64,000 nt of DNA from positions 1,731,940 through 1,795,939 of the forward strand of contig OY282444.1 in assembly GCA_958296125.1 (NCBI GenBank), given 5' to 3'. The notes beneath the pieces are model-generated. The model saw only the letters and a list, made by a program, of their open reading frames with translations. It was not told the DNA's origin and did no database searches. The position numbers and the translations under genes were made by a program. How positions within the stretch are numbered: position 1 is the first letter of the stretch; the number at the start of each line of letters is the position of its first letter. This DNA comes from an uncultured Poribacteria bacterium (GTDB lineage: Bacteria > Poribacteria > WGA-4E > PCPOR2b). Below are positions 2 to 5,013 of the stretch, in pieces.

Positions 2-3000
2 TCCTTTGAAGAAGCACTAACATGGTATCAGAAAGCTGTTGATGACTTCCCGGCAGACCCGGTTGCGTCTCATGCACTCTACGGTGCAATCTGGGCGTTG
101 AACGCGCTCGGGCGAAAGGATGAACTGGAAGCTGTCGCGAGGGAATTTATCGATAAAAACCGCATGGATAACGAACTTGACCTTCTCGCTGCTGAAGTTC
201 AGTTGAAGTTTGCGGACCTGAAATTTAATGATTTTAAGCAGTATGAGGATGCAGCCTCGGAATACGGCAAACTTTGGGAGTATCGTGATTTCCCGAAATT
301 TCACCTAATTAAGTTGATTGGAAAATTTCAGGAAGCGCGTTCATACTACGAAGCCGCCAAACCGGCGGGTTACCGTGAAGGCGATCCGGAAGCAGTCTTT
401 AACGAAGCCCTGCTACAGAAGGCTGTAAACGCGTACCAGCAAGCGATAGATAAGTTCAAGGGACCCGAGGTTAAAGGTGGAGAGAGTGGCACCTTCCTCG
501 GCGGTGTTGAGCAGGGGCGCTATGATGATTTCCCGCAGCGTCCAATGCAGGTCGAAGCCTGCGTCATGAATCAAGCCCTCTCCCACGAAAAACTGAATGG
601 GTGGGGTAAAGCTCGTGACCTTTACAAAGCGATTCTTCCAAGCAGCGATAATTATCAACGTGCACAGTTGCTCATCGCACAGAGTCTTGTCAAAGAGGGC
701 AAGAACAGCGAGGCCGTGGCGCATTATCAGTCGATAATGGACGTTTTGAATACGGACAATCGCTCGCTCGCAGAAATTAAGCTGGCAGACCTGCTGCGCT
801 CCGAGGAACGATTTGCTGAAGCAGCAGCTGAGTATGAAAACGTCGTTGCAGGTAACCCAACTGGTGAATACGCCGACGATGCACAGTATCTTGTCGGACT
901 TTGTTACTATAAAGCGGCTAAAGCGGCCTCCGACGATGCAGCCCTCTTGGATAAATCTGTTGCCGCGTTCCAGAAATCAATTGAGGATTATCCGGAGAGC
1001 CCGAATGCGGTTGAGTCATATTATGGATTAGCGCTCGCTTATCGTGACATGGCACTGGCTGGAAATGCGGAGGTGTGGCCAAAGGTGCTGGAAACCGCCG
1101 ATACTGCTTACGAAGAACATGGCAGCAGCGATAACACCATCGTCCAAAAGACGTTGGGCCATATAGACTTGGTCAAAGCGACCGCCATTGAAAAACGGGG
1201 GCTTGAATCTGAAGAAGAGAAGGCTGATCTCATTGCGAGTCTGAGGCGAATTGTCCAGAATACCGGTGCCCCAGAAGATTCTCGTTCGCGAGCACAGTTG
1301 AAAATCGGACACCTATATTATGGTGACGGTGATCATGAAAAAGCGCTCGCTGAATACCAAACATTCGTTCAGATGTTCCCTAATAGTGAGCTCGTGCCGA
1401 ATGCGTTATATCAGGCCTCTGTTTGCTATTATCAGATTGGTCAAGACAGCACAGATGAAGGGGCCCAACAGCTTGCCTTCCAGAATGCTGTAAATACCGC
1501 GACACAGGTTACCGAAAGAAATCCCGATGTCGATGCGTCAATCAGTGCCTATTACACGGTAGGACTGGCAAAGCACGCGCTGAATGATAGTAAGGGGGCA
1601 ATTGCGGCGTTTCGCCAGACCACCTCGTATGAGGGCCAAACGGAGGACAAACCCCGACAGGATTTAATTCGTCAAGCACATACCCGTCTCGCAGATTTAA
1701 ATACCGCTGTTGGCGACCACGCGGCAGCTGTGCGAGAATATCAGTATGTGATTCAGCATACAGATGATGAGGATCAGAAGGGGCGCGCCTACTTCTCTAT
1801 AGCATATGCTCAGGATGAGCATCTCAAGCAGTATGATGATTCGCTGCTCAACTATCAAAATGCGATTCAGCTTTCAAAAGATTCGCTCATCAAGGCACAA
1901 GCGTACTATCGAATGGGTTTGATTTATCAAGAAAGACTGAATGACCCCGCGAATGCACTGAAAGCATATGAGGCCTTGATTAATCAGTTCGGTGCCGATT
2001 CTAATACCAGCATCCAATCTATGGCGGCTGACGGTGGCATTCGTCGGTCTGACATCTACTTAAAATTGGGGCGTATGGAGGATGCAATCGCTCAAGCAGT
2101 CGCCGCTCGCGAGGCAGCACAAACGGTTCCACAGAAAGTTTCCGCACAGTATACTCTCGGTCTTCTGTATTTTCACCAAGCGCGGAAGCTCTTCTCCGAT
2201 AAACCGGGTACCGACTTACAACCGTATATTGATGCGAGTCGGCAAGCCGCAACCGTCTATGTTGAAGCGGCTAATGTTGTACCGGCCGATAAGGTCAATG
2301 ACACCATAAGCCTATTTGTTCAGAACGCGCTCTTTTCAGCCGGGCAGATTTACTATTCGCTCGGTACAGGGATCAAACTTCCCGATGACCTCAATAGCGC
2401 GATTCCGGTGCTGAATCAGTTCGTCGAATATGCGGACAAGGGTGTTTTCTCGGTCTCATCACAGGCGGATGTGTCGGAAAACGTCCAGACCGTATTGGGC
2501 TACCTCGCCCCCACCTATTATGAGTTGGGTCGAATGCAGCTCGGTTTTGACGAGGGGTTTTCTGAAAAAACCATTCGCTTCTTTGAGCAGTCAGCGGGTG
2601 TGTTCATAGACCTCACTCGACGATTCCCTAAGGCGAAAGAGGCACCGTTCTGGCAGTATCAGGCAGGCGAGGCGTACTTTGCGGCTCAACAGTACCAGAA
2701 AGCCATTGACGAGTATAGGAAGGTCCGCCGCATCAATCCACAGCATGCACAGGCAGCTGAATCTCTCGCTGCGATTTCAACTTGCTATGCGTTGCTGGAG
2801 AAAAATACCGAGGCTGAAGCAGATAGAGAGAAATGGCTGGGTAAGATCTTTGAAACGAACGAGGTACTCGTAAAGAACTATCCAACCAGTCCCTTTGCAG
2901 CAGAAGCGTTTCTCAACATCGGCAACACTTACTATAACCAGGGGGTTCTCACGGATGTTACAGAAGCAGACCGTATCCGTGCTTATACGATGGCTATTAA

Positions 3001-3469
3001 GCAGTATGAGCAAGCCCTGGCAGTTCCCGATATCAATGCAGAGTCCAAAGAACAGGCCGAGGTTTTCCTGCGTGATACGAAAAGAGCCCTCTCAGCAGAT
3101 GTGTATATTCAGGCGACCACCAATTTCGACCTGGCAAGGGTGGTGCATGAAGATCAACAGAAGGAAGCCGTTGAGAAGGCAATCATTGGGTTCAAGGATA
3201 TTATCAAAACCTATCCGACTACTAAATACGCCGACCTTTCTTTTGTGCAAATTGGTGAAGCGTATATGATGCTAGCGACCCAAAATGATGAGTATTATAA
3301 CGACGCGCTTGACTTCTTTGATGCGTTTTGGAGTAAATACGCGACCGTCCCGCCTAGCGACACACAGGTCAACAAAGCGTTGAGATACGCGCAAAGTCAG
3401 ATTGCCACAATCACGGAGTATATGAGGGCACAAAACATCCCACGTCGTACCGGTGGCGGTGGCGGATAG
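2..3469 (+). CDS. Giant TPR-repeat protein (5' partial)
   Basis: The reading frame is open from the first bases of the window and reads as TPR-like helix pairs before the first in-window ATG at 98, so the true start lies upstream. Nearly the whole visible 1,150 residues consist of tetratricopeptide-like repeats, with recurring A-x-x-x-Y-x-x-x-(I/L) and Y-P-x-S patterns such as the F-P-x-S/Y-P-x-S turns of YbgF/BamD-type repeats. The C-terminus ends in a run of glycines after an R-R-T stretch. This architecture is usual for periplasmic or envelope scaffolds (Tol-Pal/YbgF, BamD-like) in Gram-negative bacteria. No catalytic domain is visible. A strong terminator follows at 3568. The specific partner cannot be read from the sequence. 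Confidence 0.9.
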   Translation, partial: SFEEALTWYQKAVDDFPADPVASHALYGAIWALNALGRKDELEAVAREFIDKNRMDNELDLLAAEVQLKFADLKFNDFKQYEDAASEYGKLWEYRDFPKFHLIKLIGKFQEARSYYEAAKPAGYREGDPEAVFNEALLQKAVNAYQQAIDKFKGPEVKGGESGTFLGGVEQGRYDDFPQRPMQVEACVMNQALSHEKLNGWGKARDLYKAILPSSDNYQRAQLLIAQSLVKEGKNSEAVAHYQSIMDVLNTDNRSLAEIKLADLLRSEERFAEAAAEYENVVAGNPTGEYADDAQYLVGLCYYKAAKAASDDAALLDKSVAAFQKSIEDYPESPNAVESYYGLALAYRDMALAGNAEVWPKVLETADTAYEEHGSSDNTIVQKTLGHIDLVKATAIEKRGLESEEEKADLIASLRRIVQNTGAPEDSRSRAQLKIGHLYYGDGDHEKALAEYQTFVQMFPNSELVPNALYQASVCYYQIGQDSTDEGAQQLAFQNAVNTATQVTERNPDVDASISAYYTVGLAKHALNDSKGAIAAFRQTTSYEGQTEDKPRQDLIRQAHTRLADLNTAVGDHAAAVREYQYVIQHTDDEDQKGRAYFSIAYAQDEHLKQYDDSLLNYQNAIQLSKDSLIKAQAYYRMGLIYQERLNDPANALKAYEALINQFGADSNTSIQSMAADGGIRRSDIYLKLGRMEDAIAQAVAAREAAQTVPQKVSAQYTLGLLYFHQARKLFSDKPGTDLQPYIDASRQAATVYVEAANVVPADKVNDTISLFVQNALFSAGQIYYSLGTGIKLPDDLNSAIPVLNQFVEYADKGVFSVSSQADVSENVQTVLGYLAPTYYELGRMQLGFDEGFSEKTIRFFEQSAGVFIDLTRRFPKAKEAPFWQYQAGEAYFAAQQYQKAIDEYRKVRRINPQHAQAAESLAAISTCYALLEKNTEAEADREKWLGKIFETNEVLVKNYPTSPFAAEAFLNIGNTYYNQGVLTDVTEADRIRAYTMAIKQYEQALAVPDINAESKEQAEVFLRDTKRALSADVYIQATTNFDLARVVHEDQQKEAVEKAIIGFKDIIKTYPTTKYADLSFVQIGEAYMMLATQNDEYYNDALDFFDAFWSKYATVPPSDTQVNKALRYAQSQIATITEYMRAQNIPRRTGGGGG

Positions 3470-3567
3470 GGCACCGTGTATGTTTTTGATTCATCATATC
3501 TTCGCAGTAGAAACTCCGTTCCTTAGAGCGAATAGGGCGGGGTAACTGATCAACTCCATTTCAACAG

Positions 3568-3602
3568 AGGCGTTTGGGATATATTTCCCAAACGCCTTTT
3601 TT
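3568..3602 (+). terminator. Rho-independent terminator of the TPR gene
   Basis: A perfect 12-bp stem (3568-3579 with 3586-3597) closes a 6-nt loop and is followed by six T residues. It lies 98 bp after the stop of the TPR gene on the same strand. The stretch from 3470 to 3716 otherwise holds nothing I can support. Confidence 0.9.
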
Positions 3603-3716
3603 ATCATATCTTGCTGACAAGCCCCATTAATTATCGGATAAGGAGTTGGATAACCGTTTGAGTGCAAAGACACCAAGACAATTGCTCATAAGACCTTTTA
3701 AAAGGAGATCAATTCA

Positions 3717-4388
3717 TTGGCAACGCGGTCGAAAACCTCAGCTTGGCAGAGTGATTTAACTCCTCCTCTACGAAAGAATTCCCCGCGGAGCTCCCAGCGA
3801 TCCAGATGTCCTAATAGGCACCGTAAGGCCCCAAGCCGTAGCCAGCAAATCCGTCGTCATCTAGCTCCAGAGCTGCTGACTCAGATTCGCGCTGAAAGCC
3901 ACGGACGCGCTTACGTTCAAAAGCAGATTCGGAGGAGAACACCGATGGTTTTTGAACTTTACGGGGGACATATTGAAGGCATCATCAGTCGCCGCTTGAC
4001 TTATGCCCTTGCTGTCGTCTTAGTCAATGGAGAGGTGCACCATCTTGAGAAACTCAACATCAAGTATATGTACAAGCAGGATGAGATGTCTCAAGTTGTT
4101 CAGGATATTGAGGTGGATGCGGATTTGAAAGCGCAAAACTTGGTCTCGATTGTTCCCAGATCTGAGCGATTCCAGATTGATGACCGTGTGCTTGCGCGTT
4201 GCCGCAAGGAAAAAAATCCAGTGCGCTTAATCCTCAGAGGCGGGGAGATTATCACGGGGGTTATCAGTTGGTTCAGCCAATATGAGATGAAGATCTTTTT
4301 AGCTCATGGAGGCAACGTTATTGTATTCCGGCACGGATTACATAAGTTAGGACTTACACCGTTGAACGCTCAAAGCCAATTCCCCTAA
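3717..4388 (+). CDS. Tandem Sm/Hfq-like RNA-binding protein
   Basis: The TTG start at 3717 is chosen because AAAGGAG lies about 10 bp upstream. The 223-residue product has a 70-residue Ser/Arg-rich, probably disordered basic N-terminus, then two Sm-like modules. Module 2 (about 166-213) fits Hfq well: K-N-P-V at the start, a G-G-E-x-I-x-G-x-I Sm1 strand pair, and V-F-R-H-G-L in place of the Hfq Sm2 motif Y-K-H-A. Module 1 (about 74-120) has the same spacing (R-T-P-M-V, Y-G-G-H-x-E-G-I-I), but its Sm2 part is V-H-H-L-E-K-L. Canonical Hfq is a single domain of 70-110 residues that forms hexamers, so a fused pair implies a pseudo-hexameric trimer or another geometry. The RNA-chaperone role is inferred. 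The gene appears monocistronic. Confidence 0.7.
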   Translation: MATRSKTSAWQSDLTPPLRKNSPRSSQRSRCPNRHRKAPSRSQQIRRHLAPELLTQIRAESHGRAYVQKQIRRRTPMVFELYGGHIEGIISRRLTYALAVVLVNGEVHHLEKLNIKYMYKQDEMSQVVQDIEVDADLKAQNLVSIVPRSERFQIDDRVLARCRKEKNPVRLILRGGEIITGVISWFSQYEMKIFLAHGGNVIVFRHGLHKLGLTPLNAQSQFP

Positions 4389-4614: not shown

Positions 4615-5013
4615 TCATACGTCCTCTCGTTCATAGTTAGCACGGACGATGGTTTTAATTCCCCCACGGATGTGAAAATCCCCAACAATCTCAACCTTCC
4701 GTGGATCGCATGCTGCAACAAAATCCGCAAGGATTTTATTGACAACATGTTCATGAAAGATTCCGACATCTCGGTAAAATAGCAAATACTCTTTCAGTGA
4801 TTTGAGCTCGACGCACTGTTTATCGGGAATATAGGTAATCTGAATCATTCCAAAGTCTGGTAACCCGGTTTTGGGACAAACTGCCGTAAATTCTGGGTTC
4901 GTTACTTCAATGGTGTAATCTTTGTCGCTGTATTCATTTTTCCAGGTTTCGATGTTCGGCGTTTCCATTTCGCGGATGTTGTCCTGCAATCCACTATAGG
5001 ATTGATGATGCAT
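4615..5013 (-). CDS. queF: NADPH-dependent 7-cyano-7-deazaguanine reductase QueF
   Basis: The 132-residue product has the unimodular (short, YkvM-like) QueF layout. It reduces preQ0 to preQ1 in queuosine biosynthesis in the cytoplasm. The nucleophilic Cys46 sits in A-V-C-P-K-T-G, followed by D53. The QueF signature E-L-K-S-L-K-E-Y at 69-76 binds NADPH, F-H-E-H at 86-89 supplies the conserved His and Glu, and G-D-F-H-I-R-G-G lies near the C-terminus. The ATG at 5013 has AGGGAGG upstream. It stands alone on the minus strand with no other queuosine gene nearby. I looked for a preQ1 riboswitch in the upstream 130 bp and saw no match to the classic type I or II consensus. Confidence 0.93.
   Translation of the reverse strand: MHHQSYSGLQDNIREMETPNIETWKNEYSDKDYTIEVTNPEFTAVCPKTGLPDFGMIQITYIPDKQCVELKSLKEYLLFYRDVGIFHEHVVNKILADFVAACDPRKVEIVGDFHIRGGIKTIVRANYEREDV

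Follow-up and report, generated by a model that had tools for sequence, protein, structure and literature searches.

Hfq (PF17209; TIGR02383) is normally a homohexamer and thus has six identical pockets, and the eukaryotic Sm/LSm rings are built from different subunits; in Hfq and Sm proteins, neighbouring Sm folds pair strands to close the ring. Cyanobacterial Hfq works with PilB in type IV pilus biogenesis. A tandem Hfq may also exist in Novosphingobium. The RNA-binding roles of Hfq residues K56, Y25 and R16 have been established experimentally, and mutation of Y25 in Escherichia coli Hfq greatly weakens distal RNA binding (PMC6239178). Cyanobacterial Hfq keeps the fold and is reported to have a very low affinity for RNA (PMC10989914), and proteins that combine a zinc finger with an Hfq domain occur on Thermococcus plasmids (PMC3543421). 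Our text searches, which covered open-access literature, turned up no description of a tandem Hfq and none of an Hfq from Poribacteria; tandem Hfqs of other bacteria may be mentioned elsewhere, and NCBIfam model NF010691 (176 positions) is at most a candidate for a further one after comparison with a doubled Hfq query.

We analysed a stretch of 64,000 nucleotides from an uncultured, sponge-associated Poribacteria bacterium (hereafter the window), one gene of which encodes a protein that structural modelling strongly predicts to consist of a basic tail and two Hfq-type Sm folds in one chain (Table 1). Five orthologues from the same genus are 70-78% identical to it, and the TTG start region and ribosome site are recognizable in sister species too. 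The dN/dS values (0.04-0.21 for module 1, 0.12-0.37 for module 2 and 0.25-0.64 for the tail) indicate purifying selection on both modules, module 1 being the most constrained part of the protein; together with the phylum-wide conservation, they rule out a chance open reading frame. A viral or phage origin was also rejected, as there were no sequence relatives and the viral fold matches were poor. Upstream, the window encodes a very long TPR-like repeat protein (2-3469, plus strand; 87-88% identity across the genus), and the stem of the conserved terminator that closes this gene is perfect. Given this strong and conserved terminator, the tandem gene probably forms a transcription unit of its own. 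The adjoining gene on the minus strand (4615-5013) looks by eye like queF (preQ0 reductase); this neighbour is retained throughout the genus and in a single further one. No conserved operon was found around the tandem gene beyond the genus and one near relative, and scanning the window for Rfam families and tRNAs gave no hits.

Table 1. Features of the tandem Hfq/Sm locus, in window coordinates
Feature	Position	Strand	Basis
Terminator of the upstream TPR gene	3566..3599	+	14-pair stem and T run; kept in five species
Likely ribosome binding site, AGGAG	3703..3707	+	9 bases 5' of TTG; sister species with similar GGAG
Tandem Hfq/Sm gene	3717..4388	+	ORF, 223 aa, TTG start; genus orthologues; dN/dS well below 1
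Basic Ser/Arg-rich tail, residues 1-56	3717..3884	+	13 K/R, 2 D/E, 9 S; dN/dS 0.25-0.64
Module 1, predicted Hfq-type Sm fold, residues 62-120	3900..4076	+	AlphaFold models, Foldseek, single-domain relative L049
K112 (position of Hfq K56) and K116-Y117-M118-Y119-K120 strand	4050..4076	+	Conservation
Fixed-length linker, residues 121-155	4077..4181	+	Constant spacing; short helices and a strand in the model
Module 2, predicted Hfq-type Sm fold, residues 156-213	4182..4355	+	Pfam Hfq 155-207; PDB Hfq profile matches; model
F204-R205-H206 (position of Hfq Y55-K56-H57, proximal pocket)	4326..4334	+	Conservation

Family models recognize this protein poorly. Pfam Hfq matched module 2 only (residues 155-207, E 6e-5), at 22.9 of 27 bits and hence under the curated cut-off; Hfq_1 (PF21979) scored 19.9 of 27 bits, again under the family cut-off, and in the Pfam scan no family model matched module 1. 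AlphaFold2 modelling of residues 49-223 with 53 sequences gave a helix and five strands twice over (pLDDT 89.7, pTM 0.85), so that in the model both modules have the N-terminal helix and five-strand barrel of Hfq; the helix of module 1 starts a few residues before residue 62. When the two-module model was compared with the PDB, Hfq accounted for all 50 matches listed, and the same was true of module 1 folded alone, whose best match was the cyanobacterial Hfq 3hfo_A (E 3.4e-5, rmsd 0.9 Å over 60 columns). A preliminary description of this DNA had proposed two fused Hfq/Sm domains behind a basic N-terminal tail and had named the absence of an Sm fold from module 1 as grounds for giving the idea up; the AlphaFold and Foldseek analyses place that fold in module 1, and the model and the charge composition of the tail agree with the proposal. 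The closest fold match of module 1 thus lies among the Hfq-related proteins (PF21979 Hfq_1; cyanobacterial NCBIfam NF047718; 3hfo), which have a single domain whereas the tandem protein has two. The profile of module 2 retrieved from the PDB many Hfqs and archaeal Hfq-like proteins such as MJ1435 (2qtx), its best sequence match (best E 2e-7).

At the level of sequence, the profiles of the two modules showed no significant similarity when set directly against each other, and the module 1 sequence alone reached Staphylococcus aureus Hfq at an E value of 0.35 only. Although sequence comparison alone was not significant, a non-Sm module 1 was ruled out by fold prediction and structure search. Module 1 is nevertheless tied to Hfq by sequence through L049, which is encoded in a basal Poribacteria genome and has one domain only, its basic tail being followed by YYLLKQMREKTKMV...QKQAILYYYKA, since L049 exceeds the Pfam cut-offs for both Hfq_1 (40.8 bits), being a member of that family by score, and Hfq, and is matched by the profiles of module 1 (30.7 bits) and module 2 (22.4 bits). 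In the distant tandem relative L160, Pfam Hfq_1 matches module 1 and Hfq matches module 2, both under cut-off. The spacing from K112 to G176 is 64 residues in 53 of 53 sequences, which, taken with the pTM of 0.85, suggests a fixed geometry between the two domains.

We then compared the RNA-binding positions of Hfq with both modules, counting conservation in 53 sequences of type A, which has the basic tail and includes the window protein, and type B, which has a cold-shock domain. Hfq residues F42, Y55, K56 and H57 become Y189, F204, R205 and H206 in module 2 and Y, E, K and L in module 1. The V-F-R-H-G-L motif reported earlier for module 2 lies at residues 203-208, and its proximal residues are retained in 53/53 (F204), 47/53 (R205) and 51/53 (H206) sequences; the Q41 position is variable in this module. 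Module 1 has K112, K116, Y117, Y119 and K120 in all 53 sequences and further invariant residues at K69, Q70, I71, T75, M77 and F79; its H57 position is L, I or T, with no aromatic residue at the Y55 position. That each module conserves a different set of residues suggests that the halves retain different parts of one ancestral pocket. At the rim, Hfq R16, R17 and R19 correspond to R163, K164 and K166 of the window protein, and Arg occupies the R16 position in 6 of 12 type A and 41 of 41 type B sequences; on the whole, type A retains most of its rim bases. The distal-face residues Y25, I30 and K31 are replaced by I/T, E and I/V in module 2, and in the 53-sequence comparison they were not recognizable in module 1. 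The expectation that a tandem Hfq would have two different faces is therefore better put as a difference between two kinds of proximal pocket, since the distal-face residues Y25 and K31 of Hfq are missing in module 2 and unrecognizable in module 1. When sequences of other phyla are added to the comparison, four positions stay invariant, K112 in module 1 and G176, G181 and H206 in module 2; the window protein carries all of these traits of the Poribacteria tandem family, namely the two predicted Sm folds, the invariant residues and the constant spacing. It resembles Hfq in the helix and five-strand Sm fold, in the proximal and rim residues of module 2 and in having an extension that is probably disordered, but differs in its two mutually diverged domains per chain, the lack of distal-face residues, a score below the family cut-off and the N-terminal position of the basic extension. 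Altogether, its score, number of domains and distal site place the protein outside the Hfq family, while its fold, and probably also its role, is Hfq-like.

The genome, a single contig of 5,156,246 bases (98.9% complete), was searched for other regulators of this kind. Searches with PF17209 and PF21979 returned no canonical hfq above either cut-off anywhere in the 5.16 Mb; these two family models gave no sign of a hidden copy and extend to the whole genome the earlier remark that no stand-alone hfq is visible, and neither CsrA nor ProQ was found. The only two credible Hfq-like matches were the window gene and a tandem paralogue at 1.14 Mb on the same contig (G000:C1), which encodes a 320-residue protein in which a Pro-rich linker connects an N-terminal cold-shock domain (E 3e-18) to the same kind of tandem module. 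The preliminary description was thus right about the fused domains and the missing hfq, but foresaw neither this paralogue nor the phylum-wide family described below. As part of the explanation that we develop here, we think it rather probable that the window protein and its cold-shock paralogue stand in for Hfq in their own genome, and the same replacement seems to hold in most of the phylum.

On balance, we favor, and consider rather probable, a double Hfq that has replaced the canonical protein and of which three copies probably make up a six-fold ring with alternating modules, binding U-rich RNA and acting as a chaperone. The protein would be a pair of diverged Sm domains that follow the basic tail and are covalently joined by a linker of constant length. 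As rings close by strand pairing, each chain has two folds and the Hfq ring is six-fold, three chains would be needed, as the preliminary description had also suggested, and their six Sm folds would close a ring with modules 1 and 2 in alternation. Its proximal side would present three near-canonical U-binding pockets from module 2 (Y189, F204, R205, H206) and, in between, three modified pockets from module 1 (K112 and K116-Y117-x-Y119-K120), so that 3' U-rich RNA ends could be held with three-fold symmetry. The basic rim residues R163-K164-x-K166, joined in type A by R72-R73-R74, and the basic tail may hold a second RNA, which could speed up annealing or protect the RNA. We infer these ligands from the conservation of the proximal residues and from the basic character of rim and tail, and the RNA binding, trimeric ring and chaperone role are to be read in the same way. 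If such a ring forms, it would resemble the eukaryotic Sm/LSm hetero-rings in combining non-identical Sm folds with distinct pockets, whereas those consist of seven separate subunits and the tandem protein has two folds per chain and an Hfq-type rather than LSM-type sequence.

The missing distal-face residues and the lack of a proximal His in module 1 could also mean that the Sm module now serves protein binding or structure, its RNA function having been lost as in cyanobacterial Hfq, whose 3hfo structure is the best match of module 1 and whose affinity for RNA is reported to be low (PMC10989914). We regard this as rather improbable, because F-R-H is near invariant in module 2, the rim bases are retained, the tail is strongly basic and the paralogue includes a cold-shock domain; the latter, as a nucleic-acid-binding domain, was counted in favor of an RNA role.

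To place the window protein in its family, homologues were sought in other genomes and were present in 79 of 85 from Poribacteria. In the tree, types A and B separate, B being well supported (95/92) and A weakly (64/58), and the tail is basic in all type A relatives. Module length and the invariant positions agree between the two types. Two congeneric genomes contain one match each, of type A, and many genomes of another family have type B alone. A pattern scan (84,980 species, 66/66 loci) had suggested that the family is confined to Poribacteria, which was overturned by a whole-genome profile search: of 302 genomes sampled from other phyla, 5 contain full-length tandem relatives. In one small phylum both sampled genomes, two of these five, encode a cold-shock domain with a tandem Sm module, and in another, 2 of 4 genomes have a tandem module inside an open frame of 538 codons. 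A 537-residue protein of another phylum (L159:1727-3340, minus strand) carries tandem Hfq modules; its C-terminal part resembles the ParB N-terminal domain by eye, a match that Pfam did not call. A class-level relative (L051:616-1200, minus strand; 194 residues) combines a cold-shock domain with a single Hfq-like domain and is possibly an intermediate of the cold-shock type. The zinc-finger-Hfq proteins likewise have a nucleic-acid-binding addition N-terminal to an Hfq domain, but both they and MJ1435 have one Hfq domain per chain, and the former are plasmid-borne and carry a zinc finger rather than a tail or cold-shock domain.

The presence of both types in one genome, with equal module length and shared invariant positions, would also fit a nucleic-acid binder that makes no trimeric ring of its own, either a two-domain monomer or dimer or a partner in mixed A-B rings, some bearing cold-shock domains and others basic tails. 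These two variants are, even taken jointly, unlikely. Each type also occurs singly, which argues, allowing for incomplete assemblies, that neither needs the other.

In a second branch of the Poribacteria tree, the proteins that bear the tandem module are of GmrSD-type, UvrD-like, sacsin-like and RNase H-type kinds, and several of them match defence-protein models. Five proteins (L042, L046, L048, L061, L140) have tandem or partial Hfq modules on the C-terminal side of GmrSD/DUF262-type nucleases, followed in four of them by a cold-shock domain, and tested members matched the PADLOC models HEC-06, mREase_IV and Orf5. In L043, L044 and L142 the tandem module is on sacsin-like ATPases that match PADLOC TmtA models, seemingly on the N-terminal side in L142. 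UvrD-like helicases with a GrpE-like segment and an Hfq-like module are encoded by L045, L139 and L141; S1 repeats also occur in L139 and L141, and a GIY-YIG match lies within the helicase in L045 and L141. L056:573-1661 (minus strand) is a fusion of an RNase H-type exonuclease with a tandem Hfq module. Such company might suggest that the module acts mainly on the DNA side, as an adaptor that anchors itself or an enzyme to DNA. For the window protein we consider this very unlikely, as the enzyme fusions belong to another tree branch and it has neither an enzyme domain nor a conserved neighbour outside the genus and one near relative.

With the double-Hfq replacement as the preferred reading, a wider and more tentative proposal is that the phylum may have exchanged Hfq for a duplicated, sub-functionalised Hfq forming an alternating ring, with a cold-shock version and an adaptor branch on defence-like nucleases and helicases. 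In the open-access literature searched we found no Hfq-type regulator described for Poribacteria, and the family would offer an entry point to their RNA regulation. If confirmed, an Hfq whose duplicated halves have diverged would be a bacterial case of broken ring symmetry, and altering three of the six pockets of an alternating ring would help to show which are needed. If the proposal is true, bacteria would have a natural way of turning homomeric into hetero-patterned Sm rings, in parallel with the eukaryotic Sm/LSm proteins.
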